Shown piece after piece: positions 39,130-48,914 of a stretch of 64,000 nucleotides of DNA. Each line of letters begins with the position of its first letter. Positions within the stretch are counted from its first letter, which is position 1. The stretch lies in contig NZ_JADYWF010000001.1 of the NCBI RefSeq assembly GCF_015864945.1, positions 372,378 through 436,377 of the forward strand, in the 5' to 3' direction. This DNA comes from Salinibacterium sp. NG253 (GTDB taxonomy: Bacteria; Actinomycetota; Actinomycetes; Actinomycetales; Microbacteriaceae). The position numbers were made by a program, and so were the translations under genes. The notes below the pieces were generated by a model. The model was not told where the DNA came from, did no database searches, and worked only from the letters and a program-made list of their open reading frames with translations.

Positions 39130-39508
39130 AGGAATGGGCCGGCTAGTACGCCGGGTTCTGTTCACACGAAATCGAAATCCCATGCTGGACGGTCATCTAT
39201 CTACGATGTACGTTGCCGCACACCTCTAGCGATCTACCCGAAGACTCGGCGAGCAGCCTTAGCGTCTTCTGTCTGATCTTGCTCCGGACGAGGTTTACCT
39301 AGCCGACCGAGTCACCCCGGCCGCTGGTGGTCTCTTACACCACCGTTTCACCCTTACCCCAGGCCGAAGCCCGTGGCGGTCTGCTTTCTGTTGCACTGTT
39401 CTCGCGGGTTGCCCCGGGTGGGTGTTACCCACCATCCTGCTCTGTGGAGCCCGGACGTTCCTCGGTACCCTTTATGGATAACGCGACCGTCTTGCCGACC
39501 CATTCGAC
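39130..39508 (-). ncRNA. rnpB: RNase P RNA (type A)
   Basis: The RNA subunit of RNase P, which matures tRNA 5' ends. On the minus strand the conserved CCGGGCTCCACAGAGCAGG, ACAGAAAGCAGACCGCC, GGTAAGGGTGAAACGGTGG and GTGTAAGAGACCACCAGC blocks are visible, and the 3' end holds CAGAACCCGGCGTAC. The terminal helix P1 pairs GAATGGG (minus strand, 39499-39505) with CCCATTC (39132-39138). Exact ends are uncertain by about ten bases. Confidence 0.95.
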
Positions 39509-39533: not shown

Positions 39534-40280
39534 TTAGAGTCCCGACTCGTTCGTGCGCACGAGAATGCCCTCGCTGCTGGCACACATGATTACGGCGTCG
39601 GGCGCTGCGGCCCGGATCTCTTGCATTTCGTTCTCGAGCAGCTTGACACCGGATGCCAGCGAGACTCCGCCACGCAGCAACGAAGCGCCGACACCATAAC
39701 GCTCACGCTGGCGTTCGTAGAGCGCCAAAAGATCGTCGGGGATGGTGGCCTGCAACGCGGTACGACCGGTGCGGGTCGCGCCCAGCTCCGTCTCGATCAC
39801 AACAAGAGCCTCATCGCGGCTGGCCTCGAGCTCAGCAGCCTGAGTCCGAAGATTGTCGGCCTGTTCCGCAAGGTTGTCGACGACCTTCTGCTGAGCTTCG
39901 AGCTTCTCCATAACCGCGAGCTCAATGTCTTCGAGGTTGCTCAACCGGGTGCGCAGCGCGGTAAGTTCCTGCTCGAGCGCAGCGACATCCTTCGCCGACG
40001 AACTAGCGTCCAGTCGCGAAGTGTCCCGAGCAATGCGAGCTTCTACCACTGTGACATCCGACTCAATACGGCTCATCTCGAGCTCAATATCTTCTTTGAT
40101 CCCACGCTCTTCGAGCATCGTCAGCTGAAGCTTGTCGCGGTGCTGCTTCAGTTCGGTAAGTTTTTCGTGCTCAGGAAGCTTCTTCGCACGGTACTCCAAC
40201 TGGGCAATCTTCGTGTCAAAGGCCTGCAGGTCGAGGAGCAGCGCTTGGTCAGCGGGGCTAGCGGTCAATGCCATAGTCAT
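39534..40280 (-). CDS. Zinc-ribbon family coiled-coil protein with lost zinc ligands
   Basis: A 248-residue protein of the family usually annotated as C4-type zinc ribbon domain protein (found beside Nif3 in actinobacteria). A long coiled coil covers about residues 20-175. The C-terminal part should hold Cys-x2-Cys pairs but reads GGVSLASGVKLLENEM and DAVIMCASSEGILVRTNESG with one cysteine only, so zinc binding is probably lost. Role unknown. It follows the Nif3 gene by 24 bp in the same direction. Confidence 0.85.
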   Translation of the reverse strand: MTMALTASPADQALLLDLQAFDTKIAQLEYRAKKLPEHEKLTELKQHRDKLQLTMLEERGIKEDIELEMSRIESDVTVVEARIARDTSRLDASSSAKDVAALEQELTALRTRLSNLEDIELAVMEKLEAQQKVVDNLAEQADNLRTQAAELEASRDEALVVIETELGATRTGRTALQATIPDDLLALYERQRERYGVGASLLRGGVSLASGVKLLENEMQEIRAAAPDAVIMCASSEGILVRTNESGL

Positions 40281-40304: not shown

Positions 40305-41123
40305 TTACTGCACAACCGCAAAATCCCAAGGGTCGGTGCGCAGTTCGCTCACCGTAATCGTTACGTCTGGTAGCAGTGCCCGCAACTCTTCGGCTGCAGC
40401 GTCGAGCCACAACCATTCACTCGCCCAATGCGAGACATCGATCAACGCCGGGCCATTCAGGAGCCGAGCATTCTCACGAGCTTCAGACGCCGGATGATGC
40501 CGCAGATCACTCGTGATGTAGACATCCGAAGCCAACACGGCAGGCTCGTTCAAGTATGCGTCACCCGCTCCCCCGCACAATGCCACCGACTGAACCAGTT
40601 GATCAAAATCGCCAGCAACACGCACGCCGGTAGCGGTAGGCGGGAGAATTTCTGCGATGAGGCGAGCAAGACGACCGAGCGTCATCGGCTCCGGCAGTTG
40701 CCCCGTGCGGCCAATGCCGCGATCCGGAGTCTGACCGGCAACGATGGGGGCGATCGACGACAAGCCGAGCTTGGTGGCGAAGCGACCCGACGTTCCGTTT
40801 TCTACGACATCCGCGTTCGTGTGTGCGGCCAAGAGAGCGCACTCAGCACGCACAAGCTTGGTCAACACCGCTCCTTTGTAGCGGTCGCTGGCGATCGAGG
40901 TAACCCCGCGCAAGAGCAACGGATGGTGCGTGATGAGCATGTCCGCGCCGCCATCGATCGCCTCGTCAACGGTGTCCATCACGGCATCTACGGCGAGAGA
41001 AACCGTGGACACCGGGGCGTCGAGGTCTCCTGCGACTAACCCCACGGCATCCCAGGACTCGGCACCGGATGCGGGCCAGAGCCGTTCGGCCGCGGCAAGG
41101 ACATGAGCGACAGTAGTAGACAC
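40305..41123 (-). CDS. Nif3-like dinuclear metal-center protein
   Basis: A 272-residue member of the Nif3/YbgI family (annotated as GTP cyclohydrolase I type 2-like in some databases). Metal-binding features are MLITHHPLLLRGV near residue 62 with two His, AAHTNADVVENG, and the C-terminal LIDVSHWASEWLWL with His and Glu. The physiological function of the family is uncertain. It precedes the coiled-coil zinc-ribbon gene and lies 9 bp after the giant NCS1 gene in the same direction. Confidence 0.92.
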   Translation of the reverse strand: MSTTVAHVLAAAERLWPASGAESWDAVGLVAGDLDAPVSTVSLAVDAVMDTVDEAIDGGADMLITHHPLLLRGVTSIASDRYKGAVLTKLVRAECALLAAHTNADVVENGTSGRFATKLGLSSIAPIVAGQTPDRGIGRTGQLPEPMTLGRLARLIAEILPPTATGVRVAGDFDQLVQSVALCGGAGDAYLNEPAVLASDVYITSDLRHHPASEARENARLLNGPALIDVSHWASEWLWLDAAAEELRALLPDVTITVSELRTDPWDFAVVQ

Positions 41124-41132
41124 GCGTTCAGT

Positions 41133-44100
41133 CTAGGCGGGACGCGGTGCGCGCTCAGGCTGCTCGGCCTCTTGACGACGAATCGCGGGAATACCTGCCA
41201 CCAGCGGCGTCAGAATTCCGAGGCCAAGCGCGACGAGCACACCGAGGTCGGTTCCGGCAAGGTCAGAACTCAGATCAATGCCGAGTGCTGTGAAGCCGTA
41301 ACCCTGCCACGAAAGCCAGCTGATCGTCGCACTCGTCAGAGCAAAGCCGATCACCGAGATAACGATGTAAGCACCGAGGTTGACCCAACGAACATCGGCA
41401 TAGACGCCACCGCGGGCAAGGAGCCCAGCGCTGTCGAGCTTGCGAGTGCGAATCATCGTCTCGGAGGCGAAGATACCTGCCCACGCAGCGGTAGGTACAG
41501 CGAGCGTGGTTGCGACATCCCGGAATAGTTCATTGATGCCACCATCAACACCGAACGCGAACAGGATGCCAAGAGCACCCAGCACGACTCCAACGATCAC
41601 GATCGACCATTGGCGCGGCACGCGCACCCCAATCGCCTGAAGCGCGAACCCACCGGAGTAGAGGCTCAGCGTGATACCCGAAAGCAGGCTCAGTGCGGCA
41701 GCCAACAGCAGCGGAATGGGGTACCAGCTCGGCAGCAAAAGCAGCAGCGTGTCGAGCGGAGAAGCGAGGAACCCGCGAGCAATCGCCGGGTCGGATGCGG
41801 CAAGAAGTGCACCGTATGCGATCAGCACGAAGGCGGGAAGCGCCGCACCGAACGTTGCAGACAGCATCGACGCGGGACCGCTCGACGACGGACGCTGGTA
41901 GCGAGCAATGTCGGCACCGCTGTAGGCCCAAACCAAACCGAGGAAGCTGAAGACAAGCACGGCACCGGTTACTGTCAGCAACCACGAACCATCAGGAGTC
42001 GTGAGCGCCTGCGACACGTCGATGTACTGAGCAGTGAAACCAATGAGGCCGACAATCAGCACTCCCGAAATGATGCTCAGAATCAACTGGATGCGCGCAA
42101 ACAGCGGGTAACCAGCGAACGCAATCACGAGTGCAATAAGGAAGGACAATGCCAGGGCGATGAGAAGCAGTTGCCGGTCACCGAGACCACCATTGAGGTC
42201 AGAGCCGACCAGCACAATTGCGACCGACGAAGCTAATACCCACAACAGTACTGCGCCCCAGAAGAGTCGAGCCACGAGAGCGACGACCGAGGGCGCAATG
42301 TTGCCGAGGACACCAAACGTTGACCGCGAGACCACCATTGTTGGCTGACCACTGCGCTTGCCGGCAAGAGTCGTGAGGCCCAAAGGAATGAACGAGAGCG
42401 CGACACCGGCGAGAATGGCGACGATCGACTGGCGAAGGCTCATCCCCACGGCGAACACTGCAGCACCAAGACCGAGGCTCACAATGGACGAGTTTGCAGC
42501 AAACCAGAGCCAGAAGAGACGTGCAGCATGACCGATGCGTCGGTCTACCGGAGTCGGCTCAAGGCCGCTCTCTTCGAGGCTAAACACGCGCTGCGCGGTG
42601 GGAGCAACCTCATCTAGACCGAGCGGCTGCTGAGCCACCACAGCGGTCGAATGAGCAACAGGCTGCGGCATCGAGTCGACAGGAGCAGCAGCAGCAGCGC
42701 TCGTTTCGGATGCAACAGGTGCAGCGAGAGGTGCCGGAGCGCCGGTCGGCGCTGGCTGAGACGCGAGTGAAGCGCCAGCAATGGCAGCACCGCCAAGAAT
42801 CGCGGCGCCCGTCGCGCCAGCGGCGAAGGGAATCACATCGTCTTCACTGTCATCGTCGTCATCACTATCGAGAACGGCAGCGTCCGCGGAGGCAGTACTG
42901 ACATCAGCACCGAGTGCGGCAGTGGAAAGCTCAGCCGGATACGACAGACGGTCGCTGTCGTCGACAGCCTCATCCGACTCTGAATCTTCTACTCCAGCTT
43001 CGAATGCGGCCTGGGCGACGGGCATCGAGCCGGTCTGCACCTCCGAGAGTGGATCGCCGTGCAGCGGCGGCGCTGCGTTAGCAAGAAGTGCCTGCAACGG
43101 GTCAACATCCGCGTCATCAGCGTCGGAATCGATGTCCGCGTCGACAATGTCGTCGGTCTTCAGCAGATCGTCAAAGCTGATGGGCTCGGGGGCAACATAC
43201 TTGGGTGTTTCGCTCGAGGCAAAGCTGAACGCTGCGGCAGCATCCGCTGGGGCTGCCTCGACGGCAACGTCAGCGGCTGCGTCGTCAGGACTAGATTCGA
43301 CAACCGGCTCGGAGGTCGCAGCAGGTGTTTCTGAGACACCCTGGTCAGGCGCTTCCTCAGCTGCAGCCGCAGCCAACGGCGTTTCGGGTGCGCTCGGAGC
43401 GTCCGCTTGGAGATCGAAGGCGAAGGGTGCGTCGTTTTCCGGGGCGGCCGGCTCGGCAGCCGAAGCCGCGGAATCAGCAGCGCTGGTGTCATCAGAGGTG
43501 ACCTCTGCCGGCGGCGGGGCGAATCCGAAGTCGCCGAAGGAGACATGCTCATCCAAATTCGAACGTGGAACGCTTGGCGCAACATCCGGCTCTACAAGGG
43601 CTGGCGGAGCAAACTCGACCTCGTCGTAGTCACCATCTTCATCAGCCGGGAACTCGGGTGCTGACTGAATATCGAAAGCAGTCGGCGCCGCGAAGGATTC
43701 AGGCACGGCCGGAGCTGCGGGAGCATCCGGAACTGCAGAGGCTTCGGCAGCGGCTTCGGGAACCTCAGGACTATCACCCAAGCGAAGGAAGCCGGAGTTG
43801 GCATCGAACTCAGAAGGTGCTGGCTCGGACGCTGGCTCAGCAAGTCCTGCTGCAACGTCAGGTTCTGCCGGTACTTCAGCAGCAGGTGCTTCTGGTGCCA
43901 CGTGCGCTTCAGGCGCGGCGGGAGCAGCGGGTGTTTCGGACTCAACTGCGGGAGCGGCGAATGATTCTGCGGTCGGCGCAGCGGGAACCGAAGGCTGCTC
44001 AGGGACGTCCTCCACCACGGGAAGGGTGAGTGACTCGGTCGGATCAGCGTGAGCGGCGAAGGGAATTTCGTCGTCGAAGTCAGCCGGGGGCGACCACGAT

Positions 44101-47100
44101 TCGCTGGGTGGCGGGACATCCCATGCGGGCAATTGTGCTGCGGCCGCAGCAGGTGCTGATGCGGGTGTCGAATCTTCCGGTGCCTCAGCGAGAGCATCCG
44201 GTGTCTCGCTCGCGGTTTCGGGCGTTTCAGGCTCGGGCTGAGCTACCGCCTGATCTGCGGACTCTGCCTGAGGCTCGACTGGCGCGGGAGTCGCATCCGC
44301 TGCGGCGGCAGCGTCATCTCGCTTCACGACATCAGCAAATTCAGACCGAACCTGCTCGATAACCTGATCGGCGACAGGGCCACCTCGAGAGCGGAACGTG
44401 GTTTCCCACTCGCGGTATTCGCGAGCTTCTTCTTCACGCAAACGCAACTGAGCTTCGAGAACCTCAATGACGCTCAGCGTTCCCGTTGACTGACTCTCGG
44501 GGCTATCAGCCCAGTTAAGAATGTCTTTGTCAGCCATCGAACGGCGGGTGGGAGGTGTAGGAACGTCATCCTCTGTCGCTGTTTCTGCAGCCGCTGGCTG
44601 TTCTTCGGCAGCAGGGTGTTCTTCGGAAACTGTCGCCTGATCCGCCAAAGGAGCGATTGGGGCCGCGGGGATCTCATCCACCGCAGGAGCTGGTTCCGCG
44701 ACCGGTGTGAAGGACGCTTCCGGAGCGAAGCTCGAGACGAACGGTGCTGCGGGAGCGGGGCTTGCCTCGACTGTTTCGGCAGGTTCTTCTAGCGTGGCAG
44801 ATTCTTCTGGCGTGGTGGGTTCTTCTGACTGAGCGAACTCAGCGACCGGCTCCACCGCGAGATCTGGCGCGGGGGCGGCGATGTCAGCAACCGCCTCGGA
44901 GATGATGGGGGCATCCAGCGGCTCAGGAGCAGCAGGAACTTCTGTAGTCGCTGGAACTCCTGTAGTCGCTGGAACTTCTGCAGTCGCAGGAACCTCTGGA
45001 GTCGCAGGAACAACGTTGTCGAATGTCTCTTTGGCTTCATCCGAAACCGGGGCAGGCTGCTCTGCTGGTACCGGGAACTCGGCCGGTGCTGCCAGCTCTT
45101 CTGACGGCGCGATGAACGATTCACGGTGAGCAAAGAGCGGTTCCGCGACCGCTGATTCGGCAGGACCGGCGGGTTCGGCTGATTCGGCGGGTTCCGCAGA
45201 ATCGTCGGTCGCTGCCTCGTCGGAGAAGGTCTGAGCAGGCGACTCGAAAACAGAGTCTGCTGCCGGAGCGGGGAAGAAATCGTCGAGAGGCTGTTCGGCG
45301 ACTGGCTCGGACACCGTTGCGGCGGTCTCGACTGGAGCAGCGGGCTCGTTGAGCTCAACCGGAGCAAAAGGCTCGGCGGGCTCTACTGGCTGAGCGGACT
45401 CGGCGGGCTCTACTCGCTGAGCAGGCTCAACGGGCTCAGATTCGAGCGCGCTAGCGGGTTCGCTCGTCGTTTCCGACTCTGCCGGCAGTTCTGGTGCCGC
45501 AGCGTAGTCGGGCTCGATCGCAGATTCGGGCGCGGGCGGTGCAAGAAACTCGCTCGTCGTAGGCTCAGCCGAAGTCTCGGGAGCAACGACGGCCTCTCGG
45601 AAAGCTGCGTCAAGATCAAAAGCAGCAACGCTCTCGACCGGTGGCACACTTGCGGCCTCCGGTGCTTCTGTGGTGTCCGCTTCGTGACCGATAGGTAGGT
45701 CCGCAACCACAGGTGCGGCCGCCAAGGATGCCGCAGCATCAGTGCCAGCATCGCTGTCGGTGTCGGCGTCGACATCAGTGACAGAGTCGTCGGTGTCGGC
45801 GTCGACATCAGTGACAGAGTCGTCGCTGTCGACGTCCGAATCGTTGGTCGCGGCAGGGAGCACGTCATCGAGCGAAAGGAATCCGTCGCTGCCGAGGCTC
45901 GGCGCGTCTACGACTGCTGGTGCATCCTGGCCATCGAGGTTCCACATCGGGGCACCGTCGATGACGTCCTCCACCGGAAGCGGAGATTCTGCCGCAGCCT
46001 GCGGTTCGACGGGCGTGGGTTCAGGAGCAGAACCCTGCACGTTGGGTTCGAGTGGTCCGAGCTTCCAAATGTGGTTCGCGGGCGCATCCGATTCAGCTGA
46101 AATCGGGTCAGAGCTGTCACCAGCAACCGGGGACACTTCAGCCCAGGGTGCGTCTCCAATCGGTGAGTCGTCCGCGGCTGCGTTAGTTGCTTGCGGTTCT
46201 GGTTCTTGAGTACCAAAAAGCGATTCGAAGCTGAATTCTTCGGAATCGTCTTCAGCGTCAACTGCGCCGAGATCGAATGCACCGAGATCGTGATCAAAGT
46301 CAGATGCCGCTGGCATGACGGGCTCAGAAACAACGGGAGCAGGCTCGATCGGGGCAGACTCGATCGGCGCAGGCTCAACCGGCGCAGACTCGTCCGGCGC
46401 GAAATCAACAGGTGCAGAAGCCACGATCTCGTTCTCGACGGCCTCCGCCTCGACCGCTGAAGGCTCGATCGGCGTGGGCTCACCGGCAGCTGCAGCTTCG
46501 CCCGCTGCGAGAGCGGCGGCTAGTGCGTCGTTCTCCGCGTCTACTGCCGCAGCCTGCGCTTCCATCTCCTCAGGTGTGCGTCGTCGCGAAATACGCGAAG
46601 CAAAGAAATCGGGTGTCGTGTAATCGGCCGGAATTTGGTACGGGTCATCGTCGTCGTCGTGAGACGCAGCGGACGGTGAAGCGGGCTGTTCTCCCTCACT
46701 TCCGCTTGGCGCATCGAGTTGCGAAACGGCTTGCGTTGGATCAGGAGCAGGCGCCATGGCCCACGGGGGCATTCCTTGGTCGAGTGCGTCTGCGACGTCG
46801 GAGCGCTGGAACTCTTCGTTGAGATCAATAGGCGCAAAACCCGACGCGCCTACGGGCTGCGTGGGCGGCGTGACAGGGTCTACGGGCGGCGCAACCGGCA
46901 GGGACGCGTCTGCGTTGAGCGCAGCATCCAGATTGAATATGCCCTCAGTGGATGCTTCGCTCAGGTCGACAAGACCGTCAGCGGTCGTGTCGGGTGCCGA
47001 ATCTGAACCGGAAGAATTACCGGTCGCAGGCTTCGGAAAAGGTAGTTCGAACTCATGCTCTGAAGACGTTTTGTCGTTCGCATCGTTTGCGTCGTCAACG

Positions 47101-47117
47101 TCGTCGTGGAATGCCAT
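41133..47117 (-). CDS. Giant NCS1-family permease with ~1,500-residue low-complexity N-terminus
   Basis: A single open frame of 1,994 codons. Residues from about 1,530 onward form an NCS1 (nucleobase:cation symporter-1, cytosine-permease-like) transporter with about twelve helices; LFWLWFAANSSIVSLGLGA, RSGQPTMVVSRSTFGVLG and WAYSGADIARYQRP are typical. The first 1,500 residues are rich in Ala, Glu, Pro, Ser and Asp, very poor in Lys and aromatic residues, and acidic. One segment (about 857-935) looks ordered, with RRSMADKDILNWADSPES and LEAQLRLREEEAREYREWET. Short FDL-type motifs recur. The ATG at 47117 has TAGGAT 6-7 bp upstream and no Shine-Dalgarno sequence. It precedes Nif3. No frame break or stop interrupts it. 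Confidence 0.8.
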   Translation of the reverse strand: MAFHDDVDDANDANDKTSSEHEFELPFPKPATGNSSGSDSAPDTTADGLVDLSEASTEGIFNLDAALNADASLPVAPPVDPVTPPTQPVGASGFAPIDLNEEFQRSDVADALDQGMPPWAMAPAPDPTQAVSQLDAPSGSEGEQPASPSAASHDDDDDPYQIPADYTTPDFFASRISRRRTPEEMEAQAAAVDAENDALAAALAAGEAAAAGEPTPIEPSAVEAEAVENEIVASAPVDFAPDESAPVEPAPIESAPIEPAPVVSEPVMPAASDFDHDLGAFDLGAVDAEDDSEEFSFESLFGTQEPEPQATNAAADDSPIGDAPWAEVSPVAGDSSDPISAESDAPANHIWKLGPLEPNVQGSAPEPTPVEPQAAAESPLPVEDVIDGAPMWNLDGQDAPAVVDAPSLGSDGFLSLDDVLPAATNDSDVDSDDSVTDVDADTDDSVTDVDADTDSDAGTDAAASLAAAPVVADLPIGHEADTTEAPEAASVPPVESVAAFDLDAAFREAVVAPETSAEPTTSEFLAPPAPESAIEPDYAAAPELPAESETTSEPASALESEPVEPAQRVEPAESAQPVEPAEPFAPVELNEPAAPVETAATVSEPVAEQPLDDFFPAPAADSVFESPAQTFSDEAATDDSAEPAESAEPAGPAESAVAEPLFAHRESFIAPSEELAAPAEFPVPAEQPAPVSDEAKETFDNVVPATPEVPATAEVPATTGVPATTEVPAAPEPLDAPIISEAVADIAAPAPDLAVEPVAEFAQSEEPTTPEESATLEEPAETVEASPAPAAPFVSSFAPEASFTPVAEPAPAVDEIPAAPIAPLADQATVSEEHPAAEEQPAAAETATEDDVPTPPTRRSMADKDILNWADSPESQSTGTLSVIEVLEAQLRLREEEAREYREWETTFRSRGGPVADQVIEQVRSEFADVVKRDDAAAAADATPAPVEPQAESADQAVAQPEPETPETASETPDALAEAPEDSTPASAPAAAAAQLPAWDVPPPSESWSPPADFDDEIPFAAHADPTESLTLPVVEDVPEQPSVPAAPTAESFAAPAVESETPAAPAAPEAHVAPEAPAAEVPAEPDVAAGLAEPASEPAPSEFDANSGFLRLGDSPEVPEAAAEASAVPDAPAAPAVPESFAAPTAFDIQSAPEFPADEDGDYDEVEFAPPALVEPDVAPSVPRSNLDEHVSFGDFGFAPPPAEVTSDDTSAADSAASAAEPAAPENDAPFAFDLQADAPSAPETPLAAAAAEEAPDQGVSETPAATSEPVVESSPDDAAADVAVEAAPADAAAAFSFASSETPKYVAPEPISFDDLLKTDDIVDADIDSDADDADVDPLQALLANAAPPLHGDPLSEVQTGSMPVAQAAFEAGVEDSESDEAVDDSDRLSYPAELSTAALGADVSTASADAAVLDSDDDDDSEDDVIPFAAGATGAAILGGAAIAGASLASQPAPTGAPAPLAAPVASETSAAAAAPVDSMPQPVAHSTAVVAQQPLGLDEVAPTAQRVFSLEESGLEPTPVDRRIGHAARLFWLWFAANSSIVSLGLGAAVFAVGMSLRQSIVAILAGVALSFIPLGLTTLAGKRSGQPTMVVSRSTFGVLGNIAPSVVALVARLFWGAVLLWVLASSVAIVLVGSDLNGGLGDRQLLLIALALSFLIALVIAFAGYPLFARIQLILSIISGVLIVGLIGFTAQYIDVSQALTTPDGSWLLTVTGAVLVFSFLGLVWAYSGADIARYQRPSSSGPASMLSATFGAALPAFVLIAYGALLAASDPAIARGFLASPLDTLLLLLPSWYPIPLLLAAALSLLSGITLSLYSGGFALQAIGVRVPRQWSIVIVGVVLGALGILFAFGVDGGINELFRDVATTLAVPTAAWAGIFASETMIRTRKLDSAGLLARGGVYADVRWVNLGAYIVISVIGFALTSATISWLSWQGYGFTALGIDLSSDLAGTDLGVLVALGLGILTPLVAGIPAIRRQEAEQPERAPRPA
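44935..45006. repeat. Four 18-bp tandem repeats in the giant gene
   Basis: Units at 44935, 44953, 44971 and 44989, each near GGAACTTCTGTAGTCGCT with one to three changes. They encode PATTEV-like hexapeptides on the minus strand. The period is a multiple of three, so changes in copy number keep the frame. Confidence 0.85.
45757..45822. repeat. Two perfect 33-bp tandem repeats in the giant gene
   Basis: 45757-45789 and 45790-45822 are identical, and partial copies flank both sides. Each encodes the 11-residue unit DDSVTDVDADT on the minus strand. Exact identity suggests a recent duplication or slippage event. Confidence 0.85.
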
Positions 47118-47123
47118 GCATAA

Positions 47124-47129
47124 ATCCTA
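47124..47129 (-). promoter_or_regulatory. -10 box of the giant NCS1 gene (leaderless)
   Basis: On the minus strand TAGGAT ends 6 bp before the ATG at 47117, without a Shine-Dalgarno sequence. Confidence 0.4.
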
Positions 47130-47326
47130 AGGCGATACCAATGTTTTGCGGGTATGCCGAGCCGTACTCAGAACAGATAGTGCAACAAATATGAGGGATA
47201 TGCCGATCCAGAAGACTGCGGTTTACGCCTCTCCCCCAGTGTGGACGCGCCGATGAACGCAATCGGCCCGACTCTGATGGCTGCAGTTGTCGACATGGTG
47301 CGAGCGTATGGCCACGGAACCGAGCG

Positions 47327-48715
47327 TCAGTGCAGACCGCGAAAGAGGGAAAGAATCGCGGAAGCGCTTCGCGAAACGTCTTCTGCTGAAGTAGCCCAGT
47401 TGGTGACCGATACGCGCATCGCGGCGTGGTCGTTCCACGTTGTTCCGCTCACCCAGCAGGTTCCTTCTCTTTGAACTCCCGCCACCACCGCCCGCGTGAT
47501 GTCATCATCGTTGGCGAAACGCACCAGCACCTGGTTCAGAACAACATCGTTCAGTATCCGCACTCCGGCATCCTGCCCCAACAACGCAGCCATTTCCCGA
47601 GCTCGTGCGCAGCCACGATTAACGAGATCGGCAATACCGTCGCGCCCGAGCGTGCGCAGAGCCGCATAAATGGGAATCGCTCTCGCCCGTCGCGAAAGTT
47701 CAGGAACCCAATCGATCGCATCCCGCTCAACTCCGTGAGTTTGGATGAGGTATTCAGCCGACGACGTCATCGAGGCACGATGATCCGCCGAATGCCTCAC
47801 AATCGCGAGCCCGCTGTCATAGGGAACGTTCAACCACTTATGCGCATCCGTCGACCAAGAATCTGCGAGATCAATTCCATCCGCGAACGGGGCGAGCTCT
47901 GCGCTCGCTCGTGCCCACAAACCGAATGCTCCATCGACGTGCAGCCACGCACCGGCATCCCGAGCAATCTGTGCAATTTCTCTCACCGGGTCGAAGCACC
48001 CGCTATTGACATTGCCGACTTGGGCACAAATGATCGTCGGCCCGTCGAGCGTCGCCACAAGATCGCGCAGACGATCCGCACGCATCCGTCCCTGACCATC
48101 AGATTCAACGACATTTAGTGAGCGAGTGCCGTACCCGAGATAACGAAATGCAACATCAATAGTGACGTGAGCCCCTGCCCCCACCACCAGATTCACGTGC
48201 GGCGCCCCCGCAACGCCGTCGAGTTCGACATCCCACCCGACGCGCCTCAACACGTTGTGTCGCGCCGCTGCAAGACACGTGAAGTTCGCCATTTGGCCGC
48301 CGGTAACAAAACCGACAGAGGATTCGCGCGGGAGATCGAGCAGTTCCAGCATCCATTCGGCAGCAATTTCTTCTATCGCTGCCGAGAACGGTGAGATCAC
48401 ATGGATGCCGGCATTCTGATCCCAGGTCGACACGAGCCAGTCTGCAGCGAGGGCGACCGGTTGCGTGCCACCGATCACGAAGCCGAAGTACCGCGGTGAG
48501 CTACATGCCGTCATGCCGACATCAGCCTGACTCGCCAGCAGATCGATGACCGCCGAGGGGTCCTCTCCCGTCACCGCAAGCGGTGTGTGCAAGTTCGCCA
48601 TCATCTCGTCGCGACCGTGCTGACTTCCGACATGTCTGGTGGCTAGTCCGTGGAGATACCTGGTGGCGTGATTGCGTGCCGTTTCCAGCACAGGATCCAG
48701 TGACTCATTCGACAT
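47327..48715 (-). CDS. Pyridoxal-dependent decarboxylase (group II type)
   Basis: A 462-residue PLP enzyme of the aromatic-L-amino-acid/glutamate decarboxylase family. The PLP lysine is in STDAHKWLNVP near residue 290, FVTGGQMANFTCLAAARH fits the family's TSGGSxAN loop, and GAWLHVDGAFGLW carries the cofactor-binding Asp. The start ATG at 48715 has GAGGTGGGAC upstream; the longer frame to 48778 is unsupported. Substrate is unclear. It is flanked by a terminator and tRNA-Val upstream and a 209-bp gap before the giant gene's start downstream. Confidence 0.85.
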   Translation of the reverse strand: MSNESLDPVLETARNHATRYLHGLATRHVGSQHGRDEMMANLHTPLAVTGEDPSAVIDLLASQADVGMTACSSPRYFGFVIGGTQPVALAADWLVSTWDQNAGIHVISPFSAAIEEIAAEWMLELLDLPRESSVGFVTGGQMANFTCLAAARHNVLRRVGWDVELDGVAGAPHVNLVVGAGAHVTIDVAFRYLGYGTRSLNVVESDGQGRMRADRLRDLVATLDGPTIICAQVGNVNSGCFDPVREIAQIARDAGAWLHVDGAFGLWARASAELAPFADGIDLADSWSTDAHKWLNVPYDSGLAIVRHSADHRASMTSSAEYLIQTHGVERDAIDWVPELSRRARAIPIYAALRTLGRDGIADLVNRGCARAREMAALLGQDAGVRILNDVVLNQVLVRFANDDDITRAVVAGVQREGTCWVSGTTWNDHAAMRVSVTNWATSAEDVSRSASAILSLFRGLH

Positions 48716-48803
48716 GATGTCCCACCTCGCAAGGCGACGTCGACCCGAGTGTATCGACGTCAATCGTGCACGGAGCATACCGCTGAAAACGACCGGAAAA
48801 CGA

Positions 48804-48841: not shown

Positions 48842-48914
48842 TGGGCCCTACCGGGATCGAACCGATGACATCCACGGTGTAAACGTGGCGCTCTACCAGC
48901 TGAGCTAAAGGCCC
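48842..48914 (-). tRNA. tRNA-Val (anticodon UAC)
   Basis: A 73-base cloverleaf on the minus strand. The acceptor GGGCCTT pairs with AGGGCCC (one G-U), the anticodon stem-loop CACG-TTTACAC-CGTG gives TAC, and the T loop is TTCGATC. Discriminator A is followed by CC, so CCA is not fully encoded. Confidence 0.97.

Follow-up and report, generated by a model that had tools for sequence, protein, structure and literature searches.

Long acidic heads fused to NCS1-like permeases in Microbacteriaceae may serve as membrane-tethered docking arms

Ssy1 of yeast, a eukaryotic protein from a transporter family other than NCS1, carries a long N-terminal cytosolic extension. In the available part of one account, it is an amino acid receptor evolved from transporters, that is, a transporter-derived membrane protein acting in complex with cytosolic partners (PMC12958826). 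GlpR of Corynebacterium, an actinobacterial membrane protein with three predicted helices and cytoplasmic disordered regions, binds Glp and Wag31, as described in the accessible text of PMC10522489. As for the NCS1 family itself, to which Mhp1 and CodB belong (PF02133), the excerpted text of a review gives prokaryotic transporters, NCS1 members included, shorter termini than eukaryotic ones and almost none in some families; it also treats fungal transporters with functional tails, such as the NCS1 protein FurE, whose cytosolic N-tail of 38 residues acts on its own transporter (PMC6597760). Here we analyze a gene in a 64,000-nucleotide stretch of the Salinibacterium sp. NG253 genome (contig NZ_JADYWF010000001.1, positions 372,378 to 436,377; referred to below as the window), which fuses a very long acidic head to an NCS1-like permease and lies directly upstream of a gene that we take to be nif3, a name that comes from an earlier note on this DNA, without a family search. 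The head survives the decay or loss of the transporter in several relatives, which suggests that the arm is functional in its own right and that the transporter is partly its anchor.

Since the termini of prokaryotic transporters are described, in the part of PMC6597760 cited above, as short or nearly absent, the head is exceptional in kind. The permease matches Mhp1 by profile and, in the model of the relative L061, Mhp1 and CodB by fold, and two of its tryptophans are conserved; it differs from them in bearing a head of 179–1,700 residues and in scoring below the NCBIfam cut-offs for ncs1 and CytX. Ssy1 and GlpR are the nearest working analogies, although in the Microbacteriaceae family, unlike in Ssy1, the membrane part decays while the arm stays, and GlpR is likened by description, not by sequence. 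Searches of open-licence full-text literature found no description of an NCS1 permease with a disordered N-terminal head, of a Microbacteriaceae cytosine permease, or of Nif3 together with a zinc ribbon and RNase P; the matches on NCS1 permease disorder and on disorder in Microbacteriaceae were a paper on fungal phosphatases and one on a Curtobacterium chitinase. Among the matches listed on transporter disorder, membrane anchors and actinobacterial permease scaffolds, none describes the window protein in its title or the opening of its abstract, and no experiment on the protein was found.

The earlier note had proposed one uninterrupted frame joining about 1,500 acidic residues to a complete permease. 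This is confirmed: the gene runs from an ATG through 1,994 codons without an internal stop (Table 1), and the fusion is real rather than an artefact. The head consists largely of alanine (22%), proline (14%), glutamate (11%), aspartate (10%) and serine (9%), with 324 acidic against 29 basic residues; its tandem repeats are short and in frame, with periods of 15–33 bases that are always multiples of three. Against the closest relatives L040, L037 and L039, the ratio of nonsynonymous to synonymous substitution rates (dN/dS) is 0.30, 0.16 and 0.18 in the head and 0.017, 0.010 and 0.024 in the permease, and substitutions are in excess at third positions in both parts alike. The head values together with this excess indicate that the head is translated, and it is under purifying selection. 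The N-terminus MAFHDDVDD is common to the nearest relatives; in five further relatives, the identity of aligned head residues falls to 46–55%, with hundreds of gap columns.

Among 60 relatives searched for PF02133, all 26 genomes of the same genus (Salinibacterium, by the names of matches) have it. In each of the 26, head and permease lie directly upstream of nif3, in a single frame in 24; the other two are broken at contig ends, the head of G014 remaining open up to the end and that of G018 running for 766 residues to a contig end just before the first transmembrane helix (TM1), where the permease contig resumes. Genus names, taken from the best 80 of 137 matches, many of which are metagenome bins, comprise Salinibacterium, Rhodoglobus, Leifsonia, Glaciihabitans, Lacisediminihabitans, Galbitalea, Microcella and other Microbacteriaceae; the closest among the matches listed are Salinibacterium sp. 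SWN167 and SWN248, at 99% over the permease. Plasmid records matched 34 times, always below 60% identity, and the 20 of these matches that are listed cover the permease part only.

In 57 complete full-length proteins, the window included, the head measures 179–1,700 residues (487–1,700 within the genus), with starts outside the genus taken as the first ATG or GTG of the frame and some heads (e.g., L059, L130, L139) therefore overestimated. Four further full-length proteins cut by contig ends are excluded from the 57, as is L058, whose 1,729-residue frame resembles a GC-rich run-on. Every one of the 57 has at least 179 in-frame residues ahead of its permease. Thus, no orthologue has a permease starting alone near residue 1,500, an arrangement that would have spoken against the fusion; the comparison of N-termini proposed earlier shows a conserved fused head, whereas the length of about 1,500 residues is not conserved.

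To follow the fate of the permease, the gene upstream of nif3 was classified at 121 loci, the window included (two without nif3, two without upstream sequence and three from other families), with helices counted by a simple hydropathy window. Among the 87 loci of the family outside the genus, 34 have a full permease with a head (two of them cut by a contig end), six have one to five hydrophobic segments, four are helix-free by class, three have 12–13 segments that the permease profile does not recognize, four encode small acidic proteins, and 36 have some other gene, a class that may hide strongly changed relatives, as the upstream gene was picked mechanically. The remnants L093, L130, L139 and L200 retain three to five hydrophobic segments and have kept the head; their joint profile matches the C-terminal part of the permease (columns 335–463 of 503, E 1.4e-14; controls 0.27 to 0.5). 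L129 has two segments and an island, the ordered part of the head described below, scoring 58.9 bits. L089 has one C-terminal helix together with the head motifs RRSTYRPP, DDELARAL, LPVWQ and SFDSL and an island of 14.0 bits. No helix was counted in L199, L155, L197 or L137, all four of which end in a Trp/Arg-rich C-terminus that looks like an amphipathic anchor, i.e., a peripheral membrane tail; the island of L199 is clear at 25.5 bits. PF02133 is matched nowhere in two genomes that keep the head, G034 (one helix) and G214 (remnant), nor in G130 or any of the four genomes that encode small acidic proteins. The other eight permease-poor genomes, as well as G116 and G231, have NCS1 genes elsewhere.

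Once the permease decays, selection follows the head. In two within-genus pairs of remnants, the island is identical at 60 of 69 positions (87%) in both, compared with 66 of 141 (47%) and 74 of 144 (51%) in the membrane part; in two cross-genus pairs, the island and membrane identities are 57 and 37%, and 61 and 41%. Among eight full-length pairs, in contrast, the membrane part is conserved as well as or better than the island in seven. It should be noted that these pairs are few and hand-picked, with L140 in two of them.

Both trees are quick searches, supported only by the Shimodaira–Hasegawa-like approximate likelihood ratio test (values in parentheses), and contain long branches: L203, L098, L095, L097 and L202 in the tree of nif3 and its neighbouring zinc-ribbon gene, and L202 in that of the permease. 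In the latter, head-bearing permeases form one clade (98) beside a clade (99) of six headless NCS1 relatives, in three of which the frame measures 493–505 residues, the frames of the other three being longer, with no head demonstrated; inside the head-bearing clade a single row, L029, has no head, and it is a truncated fragment of the gene to which L035 belongs. In the tree of nif3 and the zinc-ribbon gene (99 rows), a five-row clade of remnants (99) lies within a 46-row clade (99) of mostly full-length loci, which also includes L137 and L199 together (100). L089 and L133, the latter with another gene, fall among the full-length L135, L156 and L177 (97), while L197 belongs to a nine-row clade with full-length rows (96) and L155 to an eleven-row clade (87). 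By parsimony, which does not distinguish gain from loss, the presence of the permease changed at least four times among head-bearing rows, five times if small acidic proteins are counted, and seven with the unrecognized forms. Because of the remnants and the single clade of fused permeases, we infer that a single fusion was most likely followed by repeated permease loss.

Two further sets of proteins encoded upstream of nif3 deserve mention. The small acidic proteins L179, L180, L183 and L189 end in [ST]FD[DE][LIV][LV]xG, which resembles the FDDLL motif of the heads; perhaps they are a pre-fusion or a stripped form. L192, L201 and L203 bear the island and 12–13 hydrophobic segments unrecognized by the permease profile, and have either diverged to an extreme degree or exchanged their membrane domain. 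As permease homologues these three are unproven and were counted apart: in a comparison of profiles, L201 and L192 reached E 0.018 over 366 columns and L203 reached 0.089, where a shuffled sequence reached 0.27 and two unrelated membrane sets 0.46–0.5. The structural model of L201 is poor (mean predicted local distance difference test, pLDDT, 56; best PDB match E 0.007), with NCS1 rows in its alignment biasing the fold.

What the heads conserve is, above all, an island of 58–70 residues, found in most orthologues by a profile built from its obvious copies. In a 14-row alignment, its invariant residues are R1, S3, Q33, L36, R37, E43, W47 and A59. In a sample of 199 genomes of the family, it occurs at E 0.01 or better in 45 genomes from 22 of 85 genera (G077 only at 0.002), and among the complete full-length proteins, 42 of the 57 reach 15 bits. 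Compared with Pfam, it gave only chance-level matches to nine families (best E 0.009–0.17, each family matched by one or two among the 14 members); in the PDB the best match, at E 0.23, was to the anti-CRISPR AcrF3 and prefoldin, with no relative found. In an order-wide sample of 248 genomes, the only match at E 0.001 was the window's own; 17 of the non-matching rows listed are genomes of the same family. An AlphaFold2 model of L061, a short-headed relative of 711 residues, computed from a 22-row alignment (mean pLDDT 76; predicted template modelling score 0.68), has helices at 16–24, 30–64 and 67–80 near pLDDT 90, followed by a linker (86–233) mostly below 50 and a permease mostly at 80–97. 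Thus, the single ordered island that had been suspected in the head is borne out by profile conservation and by the three-helix fold predicted for L061, and appears to constitute a new conserved three-helix domain. Judging from its composition and from the predicted linker of this short relative, the window's own head is probably disordered.

Short linear motifs form the second conserved component. Counted against 200 shuffles in the 41 of the 57 heads that were used in the tree, DDxLAxAL occurs in 25 heads and RR[ST]x[FYW]xP in 21 (shuffled maximum 1 for each), and F[DE][DE][LIV][LIVF] in 16 (maximum 4); LPxW is weaker (10, versus a shuffled mean of 1.8 and maximum of 6), and in these heads W..P, PxFxP and the broader [FW].[FLMI] (83 versus 82.2) are not enriched. 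The FDL-type motifs to which attention had been drawn are enriched in the window head, where F[DNE]L occurs five times against a shuffled mean of 0.56, a count reached in none of 1,000 shuffles; across the 41 heads they are weak (15 versus a mean of 6.0, maximum 13), and other motifs stand out, the recurrent ones being RRSTFTPP, DDxLAxAL and FDDLL. A DNA pattern for RR-S/T-T-F/Y-TPP is present in 13 of the 60 genomes, in a single copy each, with none for the reversed control. The window's sub-clade lacks RRSTFTPP and DDxLAxAL; it retains the island, LPAWDVPPPSxxW and FDDLL-type motifs. The predicted disordered arm thus bears conserved, docking-like elements, namely the island and the motifs, which exceed chance, around a low-confidence linker, with the island clear in only 42 of the 57.

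The permease itself is an outlying NCS1 member. The window protein matches PF02133 with 99.8 bits against a curated cut-off of 23.5 (positions 1–415 of 440) and no other Pfam family at E 1. The permease profile matches Mhp1 at E 1.4e-8; with the window permease sequence alone, the PDB search gave no match at E 0.01, so the profile was needed. The model of L061 has a LeuT-type fold, best matching Mhp1 (4d1a, E 8.2e-9) and CodB (7qoa, E 1.3e-8). In CodB, two aromatics, Trp108 and Phe204, sandwich the base, according to the available text of PMC9379551; here, W110 and W220 are each retained in 34 of 35 sequences, W110 aligning with Mhp1 W117 and W220 three columns away from Mhp1 W220 in the profile alignment. 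The motif N-x-D/S-hydrophobic-x-P about 10 residues before TM1, called universal in NCS1 in the excerpted part of PMC6597760, is replaced at about that place by G-x-E-P-T-P, in which only the final P agrees; it is for this reason that we place the permease at the edge of NCS1, where profile and fold still put it. The NCBIfam scores (ncs1, 61.6 bits versus 353.1; CytX, 31.5 versus 309.85) indicate no substrate. The permease (41136–42587) is unusually conserved, with 99% amino acid identity to L037 at a synonymous divergence (dS) of 0.64. As the most conserved part of the protein, with both tryptophans at or near the substrate clamp kept, it probably still works in the window's species.

The explanation that we hold to be a shade better than an even bet is that the protein is a membrane-tethered disordered docking scaffold, the permease being partly its anchor while probably continuing, in most species, to act as a transporter. 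The head would be a long acidic arm, presumably on the cytoplasmic side, that in most members carries a single folded docking island of three helices, alongside a few short linear motifs; island and motifs, not arm length, would be the conserved content. The C-terminal permease would fix the arm to the membrane and, in most species, is probably still active in the transport of a small molecule; in several lineages, transport would have been lost while the arm stayed in place through leftover helices, one helix or, putatively, a Trp/Arg-rich tail. Of the earlier interpretation, the fused protein, the acidic head, the island and the nif3 neighbour stand; that the head acts as a cytoplasmic scaffold or docking surface, including that it docks partners, is something we infer. 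Seen across the family, to call the protein a permease with a regulatory head probably inverts the relation, given that heads persist where permeases have decayed or been lost.

Several observations weigh against the scaffold explanation. Some other gene stands upstream of nif3 at 36 of the 87 non-genus loci, so lineages of this kind can do without the head protein. Nor do all members have the island: it falls below 15 bits in 15 of the 57 proteins, is absent from the same-genus L054 and L057 and weak in L052 and L053, and among the helix-poor forms it is not significant in L155 and L197 (3.7 and 4.3 bits) and weak in L137 and L089 (13.1 and 14.0). The permease profile gives no significant score for the membrane part of either L129 or L089, and one Ala/Val/Pro-rich segment of L137 was flagged by the crude hydropathy scan, though not counted as a helix. 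The small acidic proteins have neither a membrane part nor a Trp/Arg-rich tail and, if related, would mean that tethering is not universal. Moreover, conservation of the permease far exceeds that of the head in full-length members, as the comparison with L037 illustrates; this conservation and the retained W110 and W220 make it probable that transport is important in the genus.

A rival reading makes the protein a transceptor, with transport and receptor-like signalling in one molecule, or a regulated transporter: the head would give output from, or control over, a functioning NCS1 transporter, in the way that cytosolic tails do in yeast transceptors and in Ssy1. The permease is under very strong purifying selection and never headless in the 57 complete loci, the two tryptophans are kept, and in FurE the tails set gating and specificity, as stated in the accessible text of PMC6597760. 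We nevertheless consider this rather unlikely, in view of heads that persist with the permease reduced to a few helices or none (in two such genomes without any NCS1 match) and of a position beside nif3 and rnpB rather than nucleobase genes. Mostly neutral growth, in which an old small acidic protein was fused to a permease and repeat slippage then added functionless length, agrees with the spread of head lengths in family and genus, the short in-frame repeats, the low, gap-rich identity to five further relatives and the lacking or weak island in 15 of the 57. It leaves the conserved content unexplained, since the island and three motifs lie far above shuffles or chance, the head dN/dS is well below 1, and the island is the best-conserved part of the remnants; hence we regard it as improbable for the head as a whole, though it may hold for much of the extra length. 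That head and permease are separate products, arising by an internal translation start or proteolysis, seems to us highly improbable. An ATG, GTG or TTG does lie within 80 codons before TM1 at 23 of 24 anchored same-genus loci, the window included (the exception, L047, is cut by a contig end), but there is no conserved start with a Shine-Dalgarno-like sequence, any such sequence being found at three of the 24; a sigma-70-like promoter scan of 41000–47500, which left other promoter types outside its scope, found none, and headless orthologues number 0 of 57.

The earlier note had also placed the gene next to Nif3 and not to nucleobase genes, and this holds. On one strand, nif3 lies 10 bases downstream of the fusion gene; next come what we take, without a family search, to be a C4-type zinc-ribbon/coiled-coil gene, and rnpB. 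Both protein genes follow the permease at all 26 same-genus loci and at the three other-genus loci examined first, and rnpB was found at 25 of the 26; the genes upstream of the fusion gene vary. In at least 39 of 45 island-bearing genomes, nif3 lies within 5 kb of the island on the same contig; in G071 and G236 it is on another contig, G179, G183, G192 and G209 are not among the nif3 matches listed, and the second island matches in G130 and G077 are beyond this count. By position alone, Nif3 is the first candidate partner. A search for an RNA element ahead of the gene as a clue to the substrate found, at gathering score in 30000–56000, only rnpB and a tRNA. Between this tRNA (48842–48914) and the fusion gene lies a gene (47327–48778, minus strand) that resembles, by eye and without a family search, a pyridoxal phosphate-dependent decarboxylase; within the stretches covered, it occurs at only six of the 26 loci of the genus, and for this reason seems to be an accessory insertion.

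Table 1. Features of the fusion gene and of the genes downstream of it (window coordinates)
Feature	Position	Strand	Basis
Whole gene, head + NCS1-like permease, 1,994 residues	41133..47117	-	Open reading frame, ATG start
Acidic low-complexity head, residues 1–1509, net charge -295	42591..47117	-	Composition; coding, purifying selection
N-terminal segment MAFHDDVDD...ELPFP, residues 1–28, conserved in the window's sub-clade	47034..47117	-	
FDDLL-type motif FSFESLFG, residues 295–302	46212..46235	-	
Ordered island, residues 858–927, about 70 residues, without Pfam family	44337..44546	-	Three helices in model of relative L061
Conserved short motif LPAWDVPPPSESWSP, residues 996–1010	44088..44132	-	
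FDDLL-type motif ISFDDLLK, residues 1313–1320	43158..43181	-	
NCS1 permease domain PF02133, residues 1521–1930	41328..42557	-	Pfam; fold via model of relative L061
nif3-like gene (presumed), 10 bases downstream of fusion gene, constant neighbour	40305..41123	-	
C4-type zinc-ribbon/coiled-coil protein gene (presumed), third in run	39534..40280	-	
RNase P RNA gene rnpB	39131..39502	-	

Tentatively, and with somewhat less than even confidence, these observations may be combined into a Microbacteriaceae-specific membrane hub. A formerly ordinary NCS1 transporter would have been captured as the anchor of an acidic, motif-bearing disordered arm with a new three-helix domain. Selection would act on the arm, and transport, having become optional, would have disappeared on four occasions or more, leaving remnant helices, a single helix or an amphipathic tail to do the anchoring. 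The unchanged place beside nif3 in at least 39 of 45 island genomes would then point to a pathway shared with Nif3 and the zinc-ribbon protein. To our knowledge, the roles of both these proteins are poorly understood.

A transporter joined to a very long acidic arm is thus found in much of an actinobacterial family, whereas the tails of prokaryotic transporters are described as short or absent (PMC6597760). Natural decay of the transporter separates the two functions, and the role of the arm is therefore directly testable in strains without the transport part. The family also contributes what appears to be a new conserved domain and a partner hypothesis, based on position, for Nif3 and the C4 zinc-ribbon protein.

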